In this document: positions 15,106 to 35,574 of the stretch, piece after piece
How the letters are laid out: each line of letters starts with the position of its first letter
Position numbering within the stretch: position 1 is the first letter of the stretch
Assembly (NCBI RefSeq): GCF_000261365.1
Contig: NZ_AJVC01000004.1
Span: 620,001 to 684,000, forward strand
Reading direction: 5' to 3'
Length of the DNA stretch: 64,000 nt
Source: Herbaspirillum sp. GW103
GTDB lineage: Bacteria > Pseudomonadota > Gammaproteobacteria > Burkholderiales > Burkholderiaceae_D
Notes under the pieces: model-generated
Databases searched by the model: none
The model's input: the letters and a program-made list of their open reading frames with translations, nothing else
Told to the model about the DNA's origin: nothing
Program-made: the position numbers and the translations under genes

Positions 15106-16470
15106 ATGGGACACAGCGAAGCATTGATGGCCGAAGAGTGCGCCAGCCCGCGTACCCATACCGATGACGCGCCCGACACCCGCGCCCTGGTCAAGGCCAA
15201 TGCACGGTATCGCCACATCATCGGCAACACCCCGGCCATCATCTACAGCAGCGTACCCTCGGGCGACTTCCAGCTCACCTTCGTCAGCGAAAACGCCACC
15301 CGCCTGCTGGGCTACGATCCGGAGGAAATGCTGGACGATCCCAACTTCTGGTTCAACCACATCCACCCCGATGACACCGCCGCGATCTTCTCCAGCCTGG
15401 CCATGCTCTTCGTGGAAGACCAGAAGATCTATGAATACCGTTTCCGCGCCAGCGATGGCAGCTACCTGTGGATGCACGATACGCTGCGTCTGATCCGGGA
15501 TGCCGAAGGCACTCCCCTGGAAGTGATCGGACTGATGACCGACATCACCGGCCGCAAGCAGCTCGAAGACACCCTGCAACGCCAGGCCGAAGAACAGCGT
15601 GCCCTGATCGAGCAGCTCAGGATGGCCCAGGCCCAGCTGATGCAGTCGGAGAAGCTGGCCTCCATCGGCCAGCTTGCGGCCGGTGTGGCGCACGAGATCA
15701 ACAACCCGATCGGCTTCGTCAACGCCAATCTCAATACCCTGGGCAACTACGTAGCCACGCTGCTGGAGGGCATCAAACTCTACCAGTGCGTCGCCGGCGG
15801 CACGCTGCCCACCAGCGTGGCGCAATCCGAACTGCAGGCCTACGAGGCACGCGCCGACCTGCAATTCCTCAGCGAAGACGTCACCGAACTGCTGGCCGAA
15901 TCCAACGAGGGCCTGCAGCGGGTCAAGAACATCGTGCAGTCACTCAAGGATTTCTCGCGCACCGGCGAAAGCAACTGGCAGATGGCCGACCTGCATCACG
16001 GGCTGGACAGCACCCTCAACATCGCCAACAACGAACTGAAGTACAAGGTCACCATCATCAAGCAATACGGCGAACTGCCCATGGTCAAGTGCCTGGCCTC
16101 GGAACTGAACCAGGTCTTCATGAACCTGCTGGTCAATGCAGCTCAGGCCATCACCGAACGTGGCAGCGTGACCATCCGCACCGAACGCCGGGGCGAGCGC
16201 GCCGTCGTCAGCATCAGCGATACCGGCCACGGCATCGCGCCCGAACACATCAACCGCATCTTCGAACCTTTCTTCACCACCAAGCCGGTCGGCAGCGGGA
16301 CCGGGCTTGGATTGTCGCTGTCCTACGGCATCATCAAGAAGCACGGCGGCGATATTCATGTCAGCAGTGAACCGGGCCAAGGCACCACCTTCCGGATCGA
16401 ATTGCCCATCGATCCCGCCAGCGCCCAGCCGGCCAGCAAGGCCACGGGCGAACCAGGAGAAGCATCATGA
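15106..16470 (+). CDS. Soluble PAS histidine kinase
   Basis: A 454-residue kinase with no membrane helix. A PAS fold covers about 30-150 (FVSENATRLLGYDPEEML, WFNHIHPDD, GLMTDITGRKQ). A coiled-coil linker leads to HisKA with H196 in GVAHEINNPIGF, of the NtrB-like EINNP subtype, and HATPase_c (NLLVNAAQAI, DTGHGI, GTGLGLSLSYG). An AGGAGG-type ribosome site lies seven bases before the ATG. Its stop overlaps the start of the next gene (ATGA at 16467), so it is translationally coupled to the receiver/HD-GYP-like protein, its probable phosphate acceptor. Confidence 0.92.
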   Translation: MGHSEALMAEECASPRTHTDDAPDTRALVKANARYRHIIGNTPAIIYSSVPSGDFQLTFVSENATRLLGYDPEEMLDDPNFWFNHIHPDDTAAIFSSLAMLFVEDQKIYEYRFRASDGSYLWMHDTLRLIRDAEGTPLEVIGLMTDITGRKQLEDTLQRQAEEQRALIEQLRMAQAQLMQSEKLASIGQLAAGVAHEINNPIGFVNANLNTLGNYVATLLEGIKLYQCVAGGTLPTSVAQSELQAYEARADLQFLSEDVTELLAESNEGLQRVKNIVQSLKDFSRTGESNWQMADLHHGLDSTLNIANNELKYKVTIIKQYGELPMVKCLASELNQVFMNLLVNAAQAITERGSVTIRTERRGERAVVSISDTGHGIAPEHINRIFEPFFTTKPVGSGTGLGLSLSYGIIKKHGGDIHVSSEPGQGTTFRIELPIDPASAQPASKATGEPGEAS

Positions 16471-17857: not shown

Positions 17858-17971
17858 GGGAATTTCCTGATTGCCAGCCCGACCCGGGACTGATGCAATC
17901 GGCAGGACAGGGCGCTGGGCGCCCGTTCGCGTTGGGGGACGCGAGGCTGGCCCACCATAACAATATTGATC

Positions 17972-20900
17972 ATGACCAGAATCACGAGAAATACCTGCCT
18001 GTTCCTGCTCGTCGCCTTCAGCCTGTTGCTGGCGGGCGTGGCCGGCCTGTCGCAACTCAACCAGAAGGAAGTACAGGCCAGCCTGGCACTGGACAGCCGC
18101 TGGATCCGCGACGACATCGAATCCCTGTTGCGCCGCTACGAACACGGCCTGCGCGGTACCCGTGGCGCCATCCTGGCCATCGGCGCGGATGAACTGAGCC
18201 GCGAGAAACTGTTGCGCTACATGGACAGCCGCGATCTGGCCCAGGAGTTCCCCTGGGCGGGCGGCTTCGGCTTCATCCGTCATGTGCCGCTGGCCGCGCT
18301 GCCGGCTTATGAGAAGAAGGTACGCCAGGAGCAGATGCTGTTTTCCAGCATCACCGAGCTCACTCACAATCCCGGTGAACGCTACGTCATCGAATACATC
18401 GAGCCCATCGTTCCCAATCGGCAAGCCCTGGGTCTGGACATCGCCTCCTCGCCCGAACGCCGCTCGGCCGCCGACCACGCCATGCTGACCGGCCGCGCCG
18501 AACTGACCACGCCGATCAGCCTGGTACAGAAGCAAGGCACTGCCGCCAATGCCTATCTTTTCCTGCTGCCCATCTATGCCGGCTCGGTCACTCCGCCGAC
18601 CATGGAGCAGCGTCGGGAAAAAATCATCGGCTGGGCCTACGCACCGCTGTCGGTACACGACATCCTGTCCGAACTGAGCCGGCGCTGGAACGTCCATTCG
18701 CTGCAGATCCTGGTGGAGGACGTGGCCAGCGACGCACCTGCGGTCGAACTGTTCCGCAGCGGCGGATTCGACCAGATCGATGGCGCCGTCACCCTCGATA
18801 CCGCCCTGCCGCTCTATGGCCGCGCCTGGAAACTGGTGATCCGCGCCGCCCCTGAATACACCCAGGCGCACCAGTTCATCAGCGACCGCGCCATGTTGCT
18901 CTCCTGCTGCACGCTGACCATGCTGATCCTGGCCATCGCGCTGGCCTACCAGGTCTTTTCCACCCGCGAAGGCAAATTGCAGGAAGCGCGCGCACTGCTG
19001 GCCGCCGTGGTGGACAGTTCGCCCGACGCCATCGTCACTACCGATGCCCATGGACTGATCACCTCCTGGAACCGGGGTGCCACCGATACCCTGGGCCTTT
19101 CGGAGGATCGGGCACTGGGCACGGCCCTGTCCGCGCAGGCAACGCTGCGCGAACTGGACCAGCGCAGCAACACCCGGCAGCCGGGGACAGGTTTCAGTCC
19201 CGCCCCCGGTCAGCAGGAGGAGCCTCACGTGGTCAGCTTGCACGGGGAGGCGTTACGCTATGCCTCGGCGCTGATGTTCCCGCTGCGCGACCGTGCCGGG
19301 CAACAGATCGGCAAGGCCTTCATGCTGCGCGACATCACGCGCGAGAAACGCATCGAACGCCAGCTGCACCGCATCAACGAAGAACTGGAACTGACTGTGC
19401 AGCAGCGTACCCATGCGCTGCACCAGGCCAAGACCATGCTGCAGACCGTGCTCAACGTGATGCCCTCGCTGGTCGGCTACTGGGACAAGCATCTCATCAA
19501 CCGCTTCGCCAACGCCTCCTACGAGCGGGTGTTCGGACGGGCACATGGTGAAATCACCGGCATGTACATGCTGGACCTGGTAGGAACGGAGCTCTACGAA
19601 AGTGCCCTGCCCTACATCGATGCCGTACTGGCCGGCGAAAAGCAGATCTTCGAGCGCACCTTCACCCATGCCGTCAACGGCTACAAGCACGTCCTGACCA
19701 CCTACATCCCCGACATCACCGAAGCCGGAGAAGTAATCGGCTTCTACGTCGTGGCCCATGATGTCACCGAGATCACCCACAACCGCAACCAGCTCAGCGA
19801 TGCACTGGCCCAGAACCAGTCCCTGCTGGACCAGGTGCAGCAGGCCAATGCCCTGCTCAACAACGTGCTCAGCTCGGCCACCGGTGTGGCCATCATCGCC
19901 ACCGCACCGGATGGCGTGATCACTCTCTTCAATCGCGGCGCTGAACGTATGCTGGGCTATCCGGCCGAAGAAGTGATCGGGCAGATGAAGGAAGAAGCCT
20001 TCTCGGGCCGTCTCAACAGTCCGGCCATCGGCGCCCGGGCAACGGCGCAAGAGAAGGCCGTGAGCGACTTGCGCTATCGTCGCAAGGATGGCGTGACTCT
20101 GCCCGTCACGCGTCAGCAGACTTCCATGCTGGACCACCGCCAGCGCCATATCGGCGATCTCTACATCGCCATGGACATGAGCCTGCAACGCCAGCAGGAA
20201 GCCGAACTGGCGGCCGCGCGCGACCAGTTGATGCTGGCTGCGGAAGTGGCCAAACTGGGCGTGTGGGTGTGGGACCGCCACAGTGATACGCTGGAATTCA
20301 ACCGCCAGATCGCCGAGATCTACGGTATCGGCGATGGTCGCAGCGGCCACGTCACCACCTATGACGGCTGGCGCCGTCGCGTGCATCCCGACGATGTCGG
20401 CTATGTGGAAGCAGCCCTGCAGGCGGCGCTGGCCGGTACCGGAGAATTCGAACCGGTGTTTCGGGTGCAGCGCGAGGACGGCAGCATCCGCTTCGTGCAG
20501 GCTCGGGCGCACGTGGACCGCAACGGCATGGGCGCGCCGGTACGGGTGATCGGCATCAACCTGGACATCACCCAGCGCATCGAGTTCGAAAACAACCTGG
20601 TCGAGGCGCGTCTGAAGGCCGAGCAGGCCAGTTCGGCCAAGAGCCTGTTCCTGGCCAGCGTCAGTCATGAAATCCGCACCCCCATGAACGGCGTGCTGGG
20701 CATGATCCAGCTGCTGCAACGGACACAGCCGCAACCGGCCCAGCGCGACTACCTGAACAAGGCCGAAATCTCGGCACGGTCGCTGCTCAATCTGCTCAAT
20801 GACCTGCTGGATTTTTCCAAGATGGATGCCCGCCAGGTCCTGCTGGAACTGCAGGCCTTCTCGCTGGAAAAACTGCATCACGATCTCGCCGCGATCCTGG

Positions 20901-22498
20901 CGGGCAGCCCGCCCCAGGAAGGCGTGAGTCTGCACATCGCACTGGACGGCGAGCTGCCGCAACGCGTGGTGGGCGATGTCTACCGCCTGCAGCAGGTGCT
21001 GGTCAACCTGATCAGCAATGCGCTCAAGTTCACCCATCTGGGACGAGTCGACGTACAGCTGACGCGCCTGCCGGGCAGCAACGCGCAGCAGCTGATGTTG
21101 CGGGTAGAAGTGTGCGACACCGGCATCGGCATCGCCCCGGAACGCCTGCAGGACATCTTCGATGCCTTCACCCAGGCCGAGGCCTCCACCACCCGCCGCT
21201 ATGGGGGCACCGGCCTGGGTCTGGCCATCAGCCGCCATCTGGTGCAGCTCATGGGCGGACAGTTGCAGGTGAGCAGCGAACCGGGACGCGGCAGCCGCTT
21301 CTGGTTCGACCTGCCGATGCAGATCGAAGATGCCACGCCGCTATCGCAGGCGCGCGCAGACCAGGCCAGCCCGCATGCCGATTCCCCAGCCGTGCGCGAG
21401 GGCGCACGCGAACTGGAAGGCGTGCACATCCTGCTGGTGGAAGACAATGCCGTCAACCGTCAGGTCGCCAGCGGTCTGCTGTCGCTATGCGGCGCGCACA
21501 TCACCAGCGCCGACAACGGCAGCACCGGCGTAGCCCTGGCCAGCGATCCCGAGCGCCATTTCGACCTGATTCTGATGGATCTGCAGATGCCCGGTATCGA
21601 CGGCATCGAAGCCACCCGGCGCATCCGTCGCCAGCAGGACCTGCGCCATATCCCCATTCTGGCCATGACCGCCAATGCCTCGCCGGAAGATCGCCGCCGC
21701 TGCATCGATGCCGGCATGGCCGGCCACATTGCCAAACCCATCGACGTCAGTACACTGGTCCCTACCCTGCTGTCGCACCTGCAGCACGATCGCCCCGCCG
21801 CCCCGCAAGAACGCGCACCGACCGAGACCAGCGCCGTCTCCCTGCCCGCCGACCGCCAGCAGGTCGAGCAGCACGCCGACGTGATGCGGCGCTTCCGTCA
21901 GGCCAGCGACGTCTACCGTACCACGCTGGATGCTGCCGGAGCGGAGCTGGAGCGGCTGTTCACGCAATATGAGGCGGCGCTGACGCAGGTCTCGGCAGTA
22001 GACATCGGCCAGAGCAGTCATGCCCTCAAGGGTCTGTGCGCCACCATCGGCGCCAGCGGCCTGGCCGCGTATTTCGCCGACATCGAGAACGCATGTCGCG
22101 CTGCACGGGAAGAGTCGCCCGATGCCCTTTTCACTGCCCGTGCAGCGGGCTGGCATGAACAACAGGGCGCAGTGCGGCGCGATGCCGGCGTAGTCCTGCA
22201 GCAACTGGCCGTACAGGCACTGCAAGGGGTGCGCGATCCATCGCCGGCGGGGCTGTCGCTGGCCGATGCAGAAGAGCTGCCGGCCTCGACAAAGGCGACC
22301 GATTTTCCTGACAGGCAGCAGCTGCACGCCTTGTTGGCGTCGAGCAACCTTGAAGCGCTGGATCTGGCCGAAGCCATCGGCAAGCGCCATGGGCTGATGC
22401 GACAACCCTACTACCAGCAGTTGTGGGAACTGATCGAGAAACTCGATTTCCCGGCGGCCCTGGCCCATCTCGATCATCACTTCGGAGAATCCACTTGA
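17972..22498 (+). CDS. CHASE-PAS hybrid histidine kinase with receiver and HPt
   Basis: A 1508-residue multidomain kinase. It has an N-terminal membrane helix, a periplasmic CHASE domain (about 40-290, ending before the helix [19 protein letters not shown]) and several PAS domains with coiled coils (about 330-890). HisKA has H899 in [12 protein letters not shown]; HATPase_c follows; the receiver has D1203 in [12 protein letters not shown]; the C-terminal HPt has H1350 in SHALKG. It is a complete BarA/ArcB-like relay in one chain. I use the ATG at 17972; a TTG two codons upstream is possible and neither has a clear ribosome site. Its TGA overlaps the TTG start of the GGDEF regulator, the likely phosphate target. 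CHASE ligands are small molecules; this one is unknown. Confidence 0.92.
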
Positions 22499-28661: not shown

Positions 28662-28708
28662 GCATGTCTGCAGACATCGCTCCCCTCAATCCATACAAGG
28701 AGTCCATC

Positions 28709-29095
28709 ATGAGCACCCAAACCGTTTCCGAGACCCGTAATGTCCATCAGTCCAGCCAGCAGACAAGTTCATCGTCCTCGATGACGACCTGCCTGCAGGC
28801 CTGCCAGCACTGCCACGAAGTCTGTCGCAAGGCCGCCTTCGGCATCAGCCCGGCGGCGGCGCAGGAGCTGGCCGCCGACGACGTACGCCTGTTGCTGGAA
28901 TGCGCCGAACTGTGCCAGCTCTCGGCCAACTGGCAACTGGCGGGATCGCAATATTGCCGACAGATCTGCGGCATCTGTGCCGAGGTCTGCCGCCATTGCC
29001 AGGCCCGCTGCAATGCCAATGACGACATGCAGGAATGCGCGACCGTCTGCCAGCGTTGCGCGGAAAGCTGCGAAGCCATGAGCAGCATGAGCTGA
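28709..29095 (+). CDS. Cysteine-rich four-helix-bundle copper-binding protein (DUF326)
   Basis: A 128-residue protein with 16 cysteines in the repeating pattern CxxxCxxCxxxC along amphipathic helices (CLQACQHCHEVC, CGICAEVCRHCQARC, CATVCQRCAESC). This is the layout of the Csp/DUF326 proteins, which store Cu(I) in the core of a helical bundle. There is no signal peptide, so it is probably cytosolic. AAGGAG (28697-28702), six bases before the ATG, fixes the start. It is likely cotranscribed with the SDR gene upstream, which suggests a stress-response unit (inference). Confidence 0.87.
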   Translation: MSTQTVSETRNVHQSSQQTSSSSSMTTCLQACQHCHEVCRKAAFGISPAAAQELAADDVRLLLECAELCQLSANWQLAGSQYCRQICGICAEVCRHCQARCNANDDMQECATVCQRCAESCEAMSSMS

Positions 29096-29188
29096 GCCGG
29101 CGCTCAGGAAAACCCCGATGGCGGCCATGTTGCCCGCAGTGCATGATGAGCTTGTCCCATGACTTCATGACTGATGGAGCGCCCACTC

Positions 29189-29548
29189 ATGCACAAGACC
29201 GCCCTGATCGCCACCAGCCAGCCCGAAGTCAGCCGCGTGCTGACCGAATGGCTGGCCATCAACGACATCGACATCCAGATCGCCAGCAGCGGCAACGATG
29301 CCATCGAACACATCGCGCTGGACCGCCCCGACGTGGTACTGGCGCAGCTGGCCATGGAAGGCATGAGCGGTCTGCGTCTGGCACATTACCTGAAGGCACA
29401 GAAGCAGCTGGCCGACGTACCGGTCATCTTGCTGTGCCGCGATGAACGCGAGATGGATCTGGTCAAGGGACAATGGCCGGCCTTCCTCTGTGCCGGCGCG
29501 CTGCATCCCGCCCTGATTTCCGAACTGAAGCGGGAACTGGTCAACTAG
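29189..29548 (+). CDS. Stand-alone pseudo-receiver
   Basis: A 119-residue protein with the size and pattern of a CheY-like receiver, but Gln (Q53 in VVLAQLAMEGMSG) takes the place of the phospho-aspartate, and the N-terminal acidic pair is replaced by Ser/Gln/Pro. The region resembles the receiver of the HTH-REC protein at 2678 (VVLADIVMEGMDG), so they may be paralogues. It cannot be phosphorylated in the usual way and is more likely a binding module. GGAG at 29176-29179 favours the ATG at 29189; an ATG at 29174 is also in frame. Confidence 0.72.
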   Translation: MHKTALIATSQPEVSRVLTEWLAINDIDIQIASSGNDAIEHIALDRPDVVLAQLAMEGMSGLRLAHYLKAQKQLADVPVILLCRDEREMDLVKGQWPAFLCAGALHPALISELKRELVN

Positions 29549-29796: not shown

Positions 29797-31116
29797 TCAG
29801 GCCCGGTAGCCCTTGCTGCTCATCGGTACGAAGGCCAGCAGCACCCCGAGGATGGACAGGCCGATCACATACAGCGCCGGACCTCGCGGGTCAGCCTTGA
29901 TCCACAGCGAGATCAGCACCGGCGTGAGCCCGCCGAAGACGGCATAAGCCATGTTGTAGGCGAAGGACAGTCCGGTAAAGCGCACCGCCGGCGGGAAGGC
30001 ACGGGTGGAAACAATGGGGGTGAGCGAAATGCTGCCCACGAACAGGCCCACCAGCGCATAGCCCGCGATGAGCGACGCGGGCGAACCCGGCAACTGGCCA
30101 TAGAACCACCAGGTCGACAGTCCCAGGCCACCCCAGCCGATGATCATGCTGACGCGCGTGCCGATGCGGTCACACAGCCAGCCGATGGCCAGGCAACCCA
30201 AGGTCAGCATCAGCGTGCCGGCGCAGTTGGCCTGCATCACCAGCTTGGCCGGCAGGTGATGCACGGTCTGCAGATAGGACGGCGTCATCAGGATCACCAC
30301 CACCACCGCGCCCGACAGGCACCAGGTCATGCCGGCCGTCAGCAAGCTGGCGGCGCGGTGTTCGCGCAGCACGGTCTTCAAGGGCAGTTCATTGGACTGC
30401 TGGCGACGTGCAGCCAGCTCGCGGAACACCGGGGTCTCTTCCAGATAGCGACGCAGATACACCGACACCAAGCCGAACACGCCCCCGAGAATGAAGGGAA
30501 TGCGCCAGGCATACGCCGCCACTTCAGCCGGGCCATAGACGCTGTTGATGAAGATGCCCATGAGCGACCCCAGCAAGATGCCACCGGTGATGCCGGCAGT
30601 GAGCGATCCGACACCGAAGCTGTAACGGTTGGCCGGCACGTGCTCGGCCACGAAGACCCAGGCACCCGGCATTTCACCGCCGATGGCGGCACCCTGCAGG
30701 GTACGCATCAACAGCAGCAGGATGGGCGCGGCCACACCGATGCTGGCATAGGTCGGCAAGAGACCGATCACCAGCGTGGGCACCGCCATCAGGAAGATCG
30801 AGAGCGTGAACATGCGCTTGCGGCCGATCACGTCGCCATAGTGGGCAATGATGATGCCGCCCACCGGGCGCGCCAGATAACCGGCGGCGAAGATGCCGAA
30901 GGTCTGCAGCATGCGCAGCCATTCCGGCATGTCGGCCGGGAAGAACAGCTTGCCGACCACCGCCGCGAAGAACACGTAGATGACGAAGTCGTAGAACTCC
31001 AGCGTGCCCCCCAGGGCGGACAGGCCCAGGGTGCGGTAGTCGGAGGAAGTGAGCGGACGATGCCGGGACTCGTTCAGAGCCCCGGTCAATTCAGCAGATC
31101 GGGCAGAAGTGGTCAT
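29797..31116 (-). CDS. MHS-family MFS transporter
   Basis: A 439-residue carrier with about 12 membrane helices and the metabolite:H+ symporter signatures: GTLEFYDFVIYVFFA in helix 1, the loop GDVIGRKRMF between helices 2 and 3, RTLQGAAIGGEMPGAWVFVAEH in helix 4, and CDRIGTR in the central repeat. MHS members import organic acids such as citrate, dicarboxylates or aromatic acids with protons; which one here cannot be told. It is a monocistronic minus-strand gene. Confidence 0.88.
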   Translation of the reverse strand: MTTSARSAELTGALNESRHRPLTSSDYRTLGLSALGGTLEFYDFVIYVFFAAVVGKLFFPADMPEWLRMLQTFGIFAAGYLARPVGGIIIAHYGDVIGRKRMFTLSIFLMAVPTLVIGLLPTYASIGVAAPILLLLMRTLQGAAIGGEMPGAWVFVAEHVPANRYSFGVGSLTAGITGGILLGSLMGIFINSVYGPAEVAAYAWRIPFILGGVFGLVSVYLRRYLEETPVFRELAARRQQSNELPLKTVLREHRAASLLTAGMTWCLSGAVVVVILMTPSYLQTVHHLPAKLVMQANCAGTLMLTLGCLAIGWLCDRIGTRVSMIIGWGGLGLSTWWFYGQLPGSPASLIAGYALVGLFVGSISLTPIVSTRAFPPAVRFTGLSFAYNMAYAVFGGLTPVLISLWIKADPRGPALYVIGLSILGVLLAFVPMSSKGYRA

Positions 31117-31543: not shown

Positions 31544-32254
31544 TCAGGACTCCAGGACAATATCGACGGTCGAGCAACGGCGCAGCATCAGGAAGCCTTC
31601 GCCGTAGATATTGCGGATCTGCATGGGTGCCTCCTGCAACGAGCGCAATTTCTGACGCACGCGGTAGATCAGCGCATCGATGCGATGGGCATCATATTCC
31701 TCGCCCCCGGAACGCAGCAGGTCGAACAATTGCGCGTGCGAGACCGGATAGTTGGGACTTTGCAGCAGCGCAGCCAGGGCGATGCTTTCCTTGTCGGTGA
31801 ATTGCAGCGCCACCGCGCCATTGCTGGAGAGGCGTCCGGAGCGACGGTTGAAGGCCCACTTTTCGGACTGCGGCGAACTCTGGTGCGGCGCGGTCTTCAT
31901 GCGCCGCGCCAGGGCCGTGAGCGTGGCCGAGACTTCCTCCAGCTTGACCGGCTTGACCAAGTAGTAATCGGCGCCGTCGCTCATGCAGCGCACCCGCTCC
32001 TGGCTGCGCGTGGCGGCGGTGAGGATGATGATGCCCATGGACGGGAAATTCTGCCGCAGCGAGGCCAGTTCCGGCAGGAGACTGCCATCCGGCAAGCCGA
32101 TGTCGGAAATGAGGATGTCGGGCTGACGGCTCCTGAGCGTGTCCCTGGCCTGCCCCAGTGCCGAGCAGACCGAGACCTCGTATCCCAATTCCCCCATATG
32201 TGCGCTCAACGTGTTACGCCAGTCGAGATCGCTTTCTACGATAAGTACTTTCAT
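31544..32254 (-). CDS. OmpR-family response regulator
   Basis: A 236-residue two-domain regulator. The receiver has phospho-acceptor D51 in ILISDIGLPDGS, T in ILTAAT and K in YLVKPV. The C-terminal Trans_reg_C winged helix (about 150-225) has LQFTDKESIALAALLQSPNYPVSHAQLFDLL and the wing IRNIYGEGFLM. The start at MKVLIVESD is the usual receiver start; the longer upstream reading is Gly/Pro-rich and not protein-like. No cognate kinase is adjacent; the neighbours are receiver-only proteins and a KaiC-like ATPase. Confidence 0.88.
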   Translation of the reverse strand: MKVLIVESDLDWRNTLSAHMGELGYEVSVCSALGQARDTLRSRQPDILISDIGLPDGSLLPELASLRQNFPSMGIIILTAATRSQERVRCMSDGADYYLVKPVKLEEVSATLTALARRMKTAPHQSSPQSEKWAFNRRSGRLSSNGAVALQFTDKESIALAALLQSPNYPVSHAQLFDLLRSGGEEYDAHRIDALIYRVRQKLRSLQEAPMQIRNIYGEGFLMLRRCSTVDIVLES

Positions 32255-32420
32255 CACTCTTTTGTTCCGGACGAAACCTGTTTTTATGACTGCCGGAGCA
32301 TCCCCATGCGCCCCTCCCGGACGGGAACCGGGACCTTCTGCGAGCGCGGAAATGCTTTCCATAATCACAACGTTATACAGAAAATATCTGCAAATAAAAT
32401 CATAAAAACTCGCAGATCCC

Positions 32421-32831
32421 TTACACCTGAAAACTCCGCCTGGCCTGGCTTTGCGCCCGTTGGCGCAGGAGGTCCGTGACCGTCCCGAGCAGGTGGTCTA
32501 CCGAGCATGGTTTGAGTAAAAAAGCGGCAATGGTGGGCAGTCGCGCACTGGCCGCCGGCAGGTGGGCACTGATCAGCACCACCGGAATCCGGGAAAAACG
32601 TTCATGCGAGCTGGTGTAGCGCGCCAGCTCCATGCCATCCATACGCGGCATGCGCAGGTCGGTCAGAATCAGATCCGGCACATGCTCAGGCATGAGCGCG
32701 ATGGCCTCCACGCCATCGGCTGCCGCCACCACCTGCAGCCCACCCTGCTGCAATATTCCGCACAACATCTCGCGCGACTCCGCGTGATCTTCCACGACCA
32801 ATACGGTCGGTGCCTTGCTGATCGTTGCCAC
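32421..32831 (-). CDS. Receiver-only response regulator
   Basis: A 136-residue CheY-like protein with E14/D15, phospho-acceptor D58 in LILTDLRMPRMDG, S in VLISAH and K in FLLKPCS, so all catalytic positions are present. GTG at 32831 is preferred because GGGAGG lies five bases upstream; a GTG nine codons earlier is possible. It has no output domain, so it acts on another protein or as a phosphate shuttle. It lies between the OmpR-like regulator and the KaiC/receiver pair on the same strand. Confidence 0.83.
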   Translation of the reverse strand: MATISKAPTVLVVEDHAESREMLCGILQQGGLQVVAAADGVEAIALMPEHVPDLILTDLRMPRMDGMELARYTSSHERFSRIPVVLISAHLPAASARLPTIAAFLLKPCSVDHLLGTVTDLLRQRAQSQARRSFQV

Positions 32832-33064
32832 CTTGTCCTCCCGCCCTCTATCCCGCACGTCATGTCACGGTTACTTGTCGTGATTTATGGTGATGGTTGG
32901 CGATGAAACGCGATATCAGGAAATTCCTGAAACTCGGACAACATGGCGTCACCGCAATCCGGGGACAGGCGCTGCGTGCCCGGCACGAGCGTTAGGGAAA
33001 GACGCGCAAGACCGCCCCTGGCCAAGCTCTGCCATGGGCGCCAGGGCAATCGGGGGTGGGGGGA

Positions 33065-33460
33065 TCAGGCGTGCGTGCCGAGCAGGCGCTCGATTTCGGC
33101 CAGCAGTTGCTCGAAGAAGACCGGCTTGCGCAGGAACAGATTGTGACTGGATTGCGACAGATCGTGACGTTCGGGTGCTCCGCTGCACAGGATGATGGGC
33201 AGGCCGGCACCTTGTGGCAAGGCACGCAGGGCGCTACAGAGCTCCAGTCCGTTCATCACCGGCATCATGCAGTCGGAGATGACCAGATCGGGCCAGGCCT
33301 GCTGCACCTTGACCAGCGCATCGGCGCCGTGCACGGCCGTCATCACGCGATAGCCGTGCAGCTCCAGCAGCATGGCATAGGTGTCGGTGATGTCGATCTC
33401 ATCGTCGACGATCAGGAGCAGCGGTTGGACCGCCGGCTGGGGAGGTGACACACCGGACAT
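33065..33460 (-). CDS. Receiver-only protein coupled to KaiC-like ATPase
   Basis: A 131-residue CheY-like protein with D19/D20, phospho-acceptor D63 in LVISDCMMPVMNG, S in ILCSGA and K in FLRKPV. The ATG at 33460 lies two bases after the stop of the KaiC-like gene; a TTG two codons upstream overlaps it. The close packing says the two proteins work together. Orphan receivers next to KaiC-like ATPases are a recurring arrangement in bacteria without KaiA/KaiB (family knowledge), but the output is unknown. Confidence 0.85.
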   Translation of the reverse strand: MSGVSPPQPAVQPLLLIVDDEIDITDTYAMLLELHGYRVMTAVHGADALVKVQQAWPDLVISDCMMPVMNGLELCSALRALPQGAGLPIILCSGAPERHDLSQSSHNLFLRKPVFFEQLLAEIERLLGTHA

Positions 33461-33462
33461 GG

Positions 33463-34938
33463 TCAACGTCCATCCGCAACCGGCGCGGCAACAGGGGTGA
33501 CCAGGCCATCGATCTCGATGCCGGCGTCGGAGATGTTCATCAGGCGGCTGGCGCCGTCGTAGCCGTTTTCGCGCAGCTTCATCACGGAAATCTGGCGGCG
33601 GTTGACGTTATCCTTGACCACGTATTCCAGCAGCATCATGTTTTCGTACAGTTGCGAGGAACTGGGATCGACCTGGGGCCGCGATTCGCGGAAGTACGGC
33701 AACTGCTCGGTGATGAAAGTGGTCACGCCGCGCGCACGCAGTTCATTGGTCAAGGCCACCAGGAAGGGGCGCATGCGCTGCTGCTGCACCACGATGCTGC
33801 GCAGGCCATCCACGCCATCAATCAACAGGCGTGTCACGCCACGCTGGGCGATGTTGTCCAGCATGCGCTTGGCCAGATCGTCGCACAGCATTTCCAGCGG
33901 CAGCTGCCACATCATCTGCAGAGCCCCGCTGTCGATATGTTCATCCAGCTGCATCCCGGCCTTGCGGGCTTTGGCCAGCAGGCGCTCGGGCGATTCGTAG
34001 AAACCCAGGATCAGGCATTGCTGTTCATCCTTCAAACCCTGCTCGATGAAATGCAGGCCCATGAGGGTCTTGCCCACGCCGGGGCTGCCCAGCAGACAGG
34101 TGAGCGAACCGCTGACCACGCCCCCGCCGATGCACTTGTCCCACGACGCAATGCCCACGCTGACATAGCGGTCCGAGGTGCCCGGCACCCTGCCCGCGCG
34201 GGTGGCGGTGGCTTCGAAGCGGGGGAAGATCTCGACCCCGCTCTGGTTGATCTCGAAGACGTGCTTGCCCAGCAGGTGATTGGCGCCGCGCAGCTTGAAG
34301 ACCTTGATCTCGCGCACCAGCTGCATGCCGGACTCGTACTGGCTCAGTTCGATCACACCATCAACCAGAGTGTTTTCCGACTCGGGCATGTTGCCTTCCA
34401 CCGGCGAGAGCAGCAGCGTAGTGCAATTCATGGTGAACACCAGGGCATTCAGGGAGTGCATGAATTCCGACAGGTTCAGATCCGACGGTCCCGACTCCCG
34501 CACCGAACGGAAGCCGTCGATGATCAGCATGGAGGGACGATGGCGGTTCAGTTCGGCGCTGATCAGGCGCAGCAGGCCGCGCAAACCCTCACTGGCCAGC
34601 GCGCCGTAGCCGCTCAACATCTGCATCTGGTCGCCGACCAGGCTTTCGTCGAAAAAATCGAAATTGCTCACATGATTGAGCATCTTGGCGTGCGATTCGG
34701 CAATGAGCGTCAACAACATCACCTTCTTGCCACCGCGTGCCTGCGCAAAACCGACCTGCGAGGCCAGCGTGGTCTTGCCGCTACCGGCCAGCCCCTGGAT
34801 CAGGTAGAGACTGCCCGCCGGCAGGCCACCGCCCAGGATCTCGTCAAACCCGGCAATACCGGTGCTGAGCAGCGCAATGCGGCTGGCCCGTGAGGTCGGG
34901 ACGGCAGCGGGGTGATGGGACGATGGGTGATGGCTCAT
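33463..34938 (-). CDS. KaiC-like double-RecA ATPase
   Basis: A 491-residue protein made of two RecA-like KaiC domains. The first P-loop is GLAGSGKTT (49-57), with a Walker B LIIDG; the second is GSPGVGKT (about 270), with LLIDGVDG. Linkers GIAGFDEILGGGLPAGSLYL and GIASWDKCIGGGVVSGSL are the classic start of each KaiC domain. In cyanobacteria KaiC is the clock ATPase/autokinase; here no kaiA or kaiB is nearby, and the immediate partner is a receiver protein. It may be a hexameric signalling ATPase. The start follows from the His/Ser/Pro-rich head; an alternative start further in is possible. Confidence 0.88.
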   Translation of the reverse strand: MSHHPSSHHPAAVPTSRASRIALLSTGIAGFDEILGGGLPAGSLYLIQGLAGSGKTTLASQVGFAQARGGKKVMLLTLIAESHAKMLNHVSNFDFFDESLVGDQMQMLSGYGALASEGLRGLLRLISAELNRHRPSMLIIDGFRSVRESGPSDLNLSEFMHSLNALVFTMNCTTLLLSPVEGNMPESENTLVDGVIELSQYESGMQLVREIKVFKLRGANHLLGKHVFEINQSGVEIFPRFEATATRAGRVPGTSDRYVSVGIASWDKCIGGGVVSGSLTCLLGSPGVGKTLMGLHFIEQGLKDEQQCLILGFYESPERLLAKARKAGMQLDEHIDSGALQMMWQLPLEMLCDDLAKRMLDNIAQRGVTRLLIDGVDGLRSIVVQQQRMRPFLVALTNELRARGVTTFITEQLPYFRESRPQVDPSSSQLYENMMLLEYVVKDNVNRRQISVMKLRENGYDGASRLMNISDAGIEIDGLVTPVAAPVADGR

Positions 34939-35133: not shown

Positions 35134-35574
35134 ATGAAAGTGACGCCTGCAGCAATCCCCCAGATCGTGCCGGGCCAGGCCAGGCTGGCCCGGCACGCCT
35201 TCCCGCCCGATCCGGACCGTCCATCCCCGGTGCCGGCAGCGCAGCAGACCCAGGATTCTGTCGTGGTCAGCCTGTCGGACCAGGGGCGGCGGCAATGGGC
35301 GGAGGAGATGCAGCAGGCACTGGCCAGCCCGCTTGAGGGGGCGGTATCGCAGGCGCAGTTGCGCAAGAGGATGGAAAAACTGCTCAAGCGTACGGCCCTG
35401 CTGGAAATGGATGTCTTCAGCGAGCTGCGTGAAAAGGTGAAGGCGCAACTGCAGCAGAAAACCCCCTTGCCGCCGGCGCAGCGGCAGGCCAAGGAAAAAG
35501 CGCCGTTCCCCTCGCAGGCAACGGCGCTTTGTTTCACTTCCCCTGCGGCAGGAACGCCTCAGGACTTGGCGTAA
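35134..35574 (+). CDS. Hypothetical protein
   Basis: A 146-residue protein of unknown function. Its N-terminal third is Pro/Ala/Gln-rich (IPQIVPGQARLARHAFPPDPDRPSP). Residues about 50-115 are a predicted amphipathic helical region (VVVSLSDQGRRQWAEEMQQAL, then RKRMEKLLKRTALLEMDVFSELREKV). The last 27 residues cross a bidirectional terminator hairpin (35498-35529) and overlap the end of the convergent carrier gene by 16 bases, so the true C-terminus or even the gene is uncertain. I do not recognise a family. Confidence 0.5.
   Translation: MKVTPAAIPQIVPGQARLARHAFPPDPDRPSPVPAAQQTQDSVVVSLSDQGRRQWAEEMQQALASPLEGAVSQAQLRKRMEKLLKRTALLEMDVFSELREKVKAQLQQKTPLPPAQRQAKEKAPFPSQATALCFTSPAAGTPQDLA
35498..35529. 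terminator. Bidirectional terminator inside the end of the hypothetical ORF
   Basis: AAGCGCCGTT (35498-35507) pairs perfectly with AACGGCGCTT (35520-35529). TTGTTTC follows on the plus strand and TTTTTCC on the minus strand, the latter ending the carrier gene at 35559. Confidence 0.8.

Follow-up and report, generated by a model that had tools for sequence, protein, structure and literature searches.

A KaiC-superfamily ATPase and a dedicated stand-alone receiver form a conserved two-gene unit in Herbaspirillum and its relatives

RESULTS

A kaiC-like gene and its downstream receiver genes

The subject of this study is a kaiC-like gene and the receiver genes that follow it in a stretch of DNA from Herbaspirillum sp. 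GW103 (contig NZ_AJVC01000004.1, positions 620,001 to 684,000), which was analysed over its full length of 64,000 nucleotides (nt) and is called the window below. An earlier note on this DNA had described four genes on one strand: a KaiC-superfamily ATPase, two stand-alone receivers, here named RR1 and RR2, and an OmpR-type response regulator; all four are present at the coordinates given there, on the minus strand (Table 1). The starts of two of them were corrected, and RR1 and the OmpR-type regulator most likely begin with the ATG codons at 33460 and 32254, respectively. The Pfam search gave 200.9 bits for the KaiC ATPase domain (PF06745) over two stretches, and the Response_reg domain was detected in three proteins of the locus. 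The ATG of RR1 is located 2 nt past the KaiC stop codon, and RR2 starts about 235 nt past the stop codon of RR1. The genes, domains, fold and 2-nt spacing all agree with the earlier description of a two-domain KaiC homologue packed against a receiver-only gene, and no kinase is encoded among the four genes, as had also been observed. A scan for promoters was at chance level (one promoter-like site versus 0.9 expected), and a scan for terminators was little above it (five terminator-like sites versus 3.2 expected). A role of the locus in anti-phage defence was rejected, as the PADLOC matches were weak only and are explained by common ATPase or receiver domains.

RR1 is inherited together with KaiC

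To follow the distribution of these genes, we used a sample of 195 genomes of the family and a sample of 34 genomes of the genus Herbaspirillum. The data showed that 21 of the 195 family genomes contain this KaiC (58–100% identity, with next-best matches at 35% or less), while some KaiC-like match at E ≤ 1e-30 was found in 108 of them. RR1 directly follows KaiC in every one of the 21 genomes, which belong to seven genera. Among the 174 family genomes without this KaiC, RR1-like genes at E ≤ 1e-19 were found in six. In the class sample none of the 368 other genomes, of which few or none come from the same family, matched this KaiC at E ≤ 1e-100. The close matches in named genomes were from Herbaspirillum in 12 of 13 cases (73–95% identity), and the remaining one was from Oxalicibacterium (62%).

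Thirty-six orthologous loci were fetched, which together with the window makes 37, and the removal of eight duplicate KaiCs left 29 distinct ones; L071 and L105 were left out of the KaiC tree, and L104, L106 and L107 were without detectable KaiC. With RR1 starts chosen by rule as the first ATG, the distance from the KaiC stop to the RR1 start was between −7 and +10 nt in 28 of the 29 distinct loci, and 45 nt in L056. A gene-cluster table, read by eye, showed nine gene contexts of the pair without a common close neighbour, for example an RpiR/SIS regulator with glucose-6-phosphate dehydrogenase and transaldolase flanking the pair, or an adjoining groEL gene. The first of these contexts has the order glucose-6-phosphate dehydrogenase, RpiR/SIS regulator, kaiC, RR1, transaldolase in four loci of one genus (L048, L049, L053 and L054; domains checked in L048). 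The pair persists while its neighbours change, and KaiC and RR1 are the core of the locus.

The KaiC clade is monophyletic (split support 1.0), and the KaiC and RR1 trees have 17 of 26 splits in common. The distances of the two proteins correlate with a coefficient of 0.97, to which shared ancestry contributes, and none of 999 permutations gave a value as high. Most likely, KaiC and RR1 together make up the functional unit, and in the family sample the two are inseparable. The co-conservation of RR1 supports that part of the earlier note which described a signalling unit centred on KaiC, with a receiver but without a linked kinase.

Table 1. Features of the kaiC locus, in window coordinates
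Feature	Position	Strand	Remarks
KaiC-superfamily ATPase	33463-34938	minus	491 amino acids (aa); CI about residues 20-240, CII about 255-480
KaiC E81, Glu kept in CI	34696-34698	minus	
KaiC E315, sole Glu left of the CII pair	33994-33996	minus	
KaiC S428, aligned with clock phosphosite S431	33655-33657	minus	
RR1, stand-alone CheY-like receiver	33065-33460	minus	131 aa; PF00072 E 2.7e-20
RR1 phosphoacceptor D63 codon	33272-33274	minus	
RR2, second stand-alone receiver	32421-32831	minus	PF00072 E 9e-21; likely GTG start at 32831, GGAGG upstream
OmpR-type response regulator	31544-32254	minus	PF00072 + PF00486 (Response_reg + Trans_reg_C)
Major facilitator superfamily (MFS) metabolite/H+ symporter (MFS1)	29797-31116	minus	constant neighbour of the OmpR-type regulator

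KaiC keeps its ATP sites and lacks features of a clock kinase

RR1 is a single-domain response regulator, consisting of PF00072 alone with no output domain, and its residues D19, D20, D63, S93 and K112 are intact in 29 of 29 orthologues. The ratio of nonsynonymous to synonymous substitution rates (dN/dS), determined against 14 relatives, was 0.145–0.299 for RR1 and 0.065–0.188 for KaiC, and both proteins are under purifying selection.

The predicted structure of KaiC (491 aa) had a mean pLDDT (predicted local distance difference test) score of 83.4. It best matched a solved KaiC, PDB 8zn7_B (Z 37.2, root mean square deviation 4.6, 457 residues aligned), and the Z scores against full-length KaiC structures were about 33–37. 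The protein has the characteristics of the double-domain KaiC superfamily, which are two PF06745 domains, Walker A and B motifs, and the KaiC fold. Walker A residues K55/T56 in CI and K290/T291 in CII are invariant in the 29 orthologues, and so are Walker B residues D141 and D374, as well as E81, E315, K215, R217, K454 and R456. The K215/R217 and K454/R456 positions align with the Lys/Arg couple by which neighbouring subunits of KaiC are bridged.

Other features differ from those of clock KaiC. The first Glu of both catalytic pairs is replaced in 29 of 29 sequences, which have A80-E81 in CI and Y/F/S314-E315 in CII. While S428 is invariant (29/29), residue 429, equivalent to T432, is Q, M, A, V, I or E, and never S or T. 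There is a six-residue gap in CI relative to clock KaiC, next to the loop by which the clock protein binds KaiB. The protein ends in a short, disordered tail, with pLDDT below 50 for residues 483–491 in the model. The scores against the circadian KaiC families of NCBIfam were below their cut-offs (137.3 of 546.25 bits for TIGR02655, and 199.7 of 408 bits for NF006799). One of the structure matches, PDB 4dug, is by its title the E318A mutant of KaiC; a literature search on E318 as a general base found no paper. The active-site residues and the purifying selection suggest that KaiC is likely an active ring ATPase beside a working receiver, and not a two-site clock kinase.

The search of the whole assembly of this genome (5.05 Mb, six contigs) gave no matches at E ≤ 1 to KaiB (PF07689) or KaiA (PF07688), while the Synechococcus elongatus control was positive, so that the reported lack of kaiA and kaiB holds genome-wide. 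KaiB was also missing in 10 of the 11 tested genomes with this KaiC. A Herbaspirillum metagenome-assembled genome with three KaiC-like genes, one of them with RR1, contains two tandem KaiB-like matches (G215:C89:2706-3292). No other double-KaiC gene is present in the GW103 genome, and its other PF06745 matches (L003–L006) are partial and weak. The circadian features that the protein and its genome lack thus include the adjacent S431/T432 phosphosites, the Glu-Glu pairs, and KaiA with KaiB.

RR2 and the OmpR-type regulator have different histories

In the genus sample, KaiC orthologues (at least 74% identity) were found in 17 genomes, OmpR orthologues (at least 75%) in 19, and both in 16. KaiC without OmpR occurred in G215, and OmpR without KaiC in G196, G163 and G206. 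RR2 was present at the locus in exactly the 16 genomes with both KaiC and OmpR, that is, in 16 of the 17 with KaiC and in none of the three with OmpR only. In those three genomes, MFS1 and OmpR are directly followed by a metallophosphoesterase gene, which in L042 and L043 is found beyond KaiC. In these genomes KaiC, RR1 and RR2 are thus absent together as one block. Judging by the distribution in the genus, OmpR and MFS1 are a separate neighbouring backbone unit outside the KaiC unit, and RR2 is a lineage-specific added receiver, a companion at the level of the genus whose membership of the KaiC block is confined to Herbaspirillum. In G212, G174 and G215, RR2-like receivers were also seen close to KaiC genes other than this one.

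These data do not bear out the earlier grouping of KaiC and three receivers into one unit. Co-conservation with the ATPase was found for RR1 (21/21 genomes, 29/29 loci), it was limited to Herbaspirillum for RR2, and it failed for OmpR, which persists without KaiC. Likewise, a single operon of all four genes was rejected, being ruled out by the occurrence of OmpR-MFS1 without KaiC-RR1-RR2 and of KaiC-RR1 without the others.

Related KaiC clades often have a kinase gene behind kaiC

The sister of this clade is a second family-level KaiC group (joint split support 0.999). Fourteen loci of family paralogues were fetched; a hybrid kinase with a receiver (REC) domain was found at most 40 nt behind KaiC in eight of them, and a lone receiver directly behind KaiC in none. 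Among 35 more distant named loci with detectable KaiC, a kinase and/or a REC protein was located within 700 nt behind it in 21 by our own count, and one of the distant loci, Calothrix L070, has a lone receiver behind KaiC and then a kinase. These neighbour counts indicate that wiring of KaiC to a two-component protein is general, and that what sets this clade apart is the lone receiver with no kinase. In L051 a kaiC-RR1 pair has as its convergent neighbour another kaiC, which comes with a hybrid kinase.

RR1 is 35–37% identical to some C-terminal REC domains of hybrid kinases, and 41–46% identical to receivers paired with a separate kinase. RR1-like receivers unlinked to KaiC were found in six genomes, with a second match in G120, and a kinase gene adjoins in six of these seven loci, namely in five of the six genomes and at the further G120 match. 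In the loci of this receiver-kinase pair (L128, L129, L130, L131, L132 and L134), a conserved lone receiver, 41–44% identical to RR1 (36% in L134), stands beside a HisKA-type kinase of about 385 aa, the N-terminal domain of which is without assignment. This kinase family was rejected as the general cognate of RR1 on account of its distribution (see Discussion). A paralogous KaiC-kinase system was rejected as the phosphate donor, there being no second double-KaiC in this genome.

Histidine kinases are located about 9–28 kb away in the window, for example at 15106–16470 and 17966–22498. The earlier suggestion that distant kinases may provide the input is plausible. The region 877–27425 of the window is dense in signalling genes, which encode two dCache histidine kinases, a PAS kinase, a 1510-aa CHASE-PAS hybrid kinase, a PAS-MCP protein (MCP, methyl-accepting chemotaxis protein), and CheW-REC, EAL, GGDEF, REC-HD, LuxR-type, SpoIIE, HTH-REC and photolyase-related proteins. 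Of these, the 1510-aa protein is a candidate kinase for the orphan receivers.

Other genes near the locus

Three further genes, all on the plus strand, were noted. A degenerate receiver (29174–29548; PF00072 E 2.5e-11), in which the phospho-Asp and the acidic pocket seem by eye to be replaced (LAQLAM, ATSQ), is conserved near the locus in many Herbaspirillum genomes. The gene at 28664–29095 encodes a Cys-rich protein of 143 aa, which matched neither Pfam nor NCBIfam families and seems to resemble four-helix Cys-rich copper storage proteins. A small divergent gene upstream of kaiC (35134–35574) is poorly conserved (37–65%); it has the same divergent position in several Herbaspirillum loci, and its likely counterpart in L042 is without a Pfam match.

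DISCUSSION

The finding is real and narrower than first described: a KaiC-superfamily ATPase and one receiver, RR1, form the unit. Of the explanations considered here, the most likely one is that a two-component signal reaches the KaiC ring through RR1, and we hold with moderate confidence that the pair couples a KaiC ring ATPase to two-component signalling via a dedicated receiver, with the kinase encoded elsewhere and without a clock. KaiC would assemble into a hexameric ring of double-domain ATPase subunits with no clock kinase activity, and RR1, translated right behind it, would be its phosphorylatable partner. A histidine kinase encoded elsewhere would set the phosphorylation of Asp63, phospho-RR1 would dock on the KaiC ring and alter the ATPase activity or the conformation of the ring, which may relay the signal further by protein contacts. 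A more specific version, which we put forward tentatively, is that a phospho-receiver has taken the place of the regulation by KaiA and KaiB. RR1~P would then dock on the ring and gate its ATPase, making a two-protein switch for the whole two-component network, and in Herbaspirillum RR2 could compete for or fine-tune the same ring.

Several observations weigh against signalling from a distant kinase via RR1 to KaiC. Co-inheritance is silent on the direction of the signal, and the agreement of the KaiC and RR1 trees is partly plain species history. The kinase family found beside RR1-like receivers gave, with one kinase as query and a threshold of E ≤ 1e-45, no match in the GW103 genome and matches in just 7 of the 21 KaiC-RR1 genomes. 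The invariance of S428 leaves room for some autophosphorylation of KaiC.

The main rival explanation reverses the direction. KaiC would be the sensor, of ATP/ADP or of redox state, and RR1 the output, which the ring would bind or release, thereby controlling its access to a kinase, a phosphatase or another target, such as the chemotaxis machinery. In its favour, RR1 is CheY-like and without an output domain, and in three Herbaspirillum loci (L058, L060 and L061; domain confirmed in L058) an MCP-family gene on the same strand immediately precedes kaiC. A passage of PMC5520375 on cyanobacteria likewise describes a readout of the KaiC state via a kinase and a response regulator. However, the proximity of MCP genes is limited to a minority of the loci, and the archaeal KaiC-REC fusions, as far as they are described in a part of PMC5847659, argue for a receiver acting on the ATPase. 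We regard the reversed direction as possible and clearly less probable than signalling from RR1 to KaiC.

It is improbable that KaiC, RR1, RR2 and the OmpR-type regulator make up one regulatory circuit with OmpR as its transcriptional output. All four are present in 16 of the 34 genus genomes, they lie on one strand in the same order in the fetched loci, and RR2 is missing at the locus wherever KaiC is missing. On the other hand, OmpR and MFS1 remain without KaiC, RR1 and RR2 in G196, G163 and G206, while the KaiC-RR1 pair is found with neither RR2 nor OmpR in G215 and in the 12 genomes of the family sample that come from outside Herbaspirillum. The gap of about 235 nt between RR1 and RR2, and the extra genes between RR1 and RR2/OmpR in L043 and L064, also argue against such a circuit.

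The timing role that the earlier note had offered beside signalling is unlikely, given the missing KaiA and KaiB, the loss of one phosphosite and of one Glu per catalytic pair, and the short, disordered tail. A simplified timer, in which KaiC autophosphorylates at S428 in an hourglass or rhythmic cycle that is read by the receivers, would draw on the alignment of the invariant S428 with S431, and a passage in PMC11832031 notes a report that a single Ser431 site is sufficient for a temperature-compensated period. In contrast, a passage in PMC3164672 argues that homologues without two phosphorylatable residues probably cannot sustain cyclic timing. Here the T432 equivalent and the first Glu of both pairs are lost, KaiB is missing also from most of the tested genomes, and the CI gap lies by the KaiB-contacting loop, all of which makes such a timer very improbable. 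Equally hard to credit is that the pair is a functionless remnant of a KaiC-hybrid-kinase system that has lost its kinase: hybrid kinases that end in a REC domain do occur in related KaiC clades, and some of these domains resemble RR1, but KaiC and RR1 are under purifying selection with complete receiver and ATPase residues, they are retained jointly in seven genera, and RR1 is closer to receivers paired with a separate kinase.

Little is understood of what KaiC proteins do where KaiA and KaiB are missing. Many bacterial KaiCs come with large multi-domain hybrid kinases, which are hard to dissect. In the KaiC-RR1 clade the problem comes down to a pair of small and probably soluble proteins that are always found together. 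Whether and how a receiver controls a KaiC ring could thus be answered with purified KaiC and RR1 and with simple deletions in a plant-associated laboratory species. In a literature search that left subscription journals mostly uncovered, neither the Herbaspirillum gene nor the mechanism of a KaiC with a lone receiver came up as the subject of a paper.

A survey of kaiC gene contexts by De Luca et al. appeared in 2011. A part of this survey sorts the contexts into three, the third of which ("black") often consists of kaiC followed by a gene for a single-domain receiver, or alternatively is located near a signalling protein, with poorly conserved phosphosites and a heterogeneous membership (PMC3164672). 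The KaiC-RR1 pair has this context of kaiC and then a single-domain receiver, and it resembles the group as described there in being bacterial and in keeping no more than one of the clock's two phosphosites. Unlike that heterogeneous group, the pair belongs to one monophyletic clade with a fixed partner, a fixed spacing and the A80-E81 and Y/F/S314-E315 signature. The proteobacterial systems of KaiC with a (hybrid) histidine kinase, which are the second context in the same part of PMC3164672 and include the sister clade, also have KaiC beside a two-component protein, and their hybrid kinases carry REC domains; in contrast, the clade described here has no kinase, and its receiver is separate and closer to the receivers of stand-alone kinases. 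The KaiC-REC fusions reported for six archaeal genera in a part of PMC5847659 likewise join a KaiC ATPase and a receiver in one unit, although the archaeal unit is a single polypeptide and the present one consists of two bacterial genes; in this connection, Makarova et al. reportedly made a hub proposal in 2017. With the cyanobacterial KaiABC-SasA-RpaA clock the pair shares the double-domain KaiC fold, while it is without KaiA, KaiB, the T432 equivalent and the paired Glu residues, and its C-terminal tail is short. The arrangement of kaiC followed by a receiver gene has thus been in print since 2011, and the KaiC-RR1 pair is a clearly defined variant of it.

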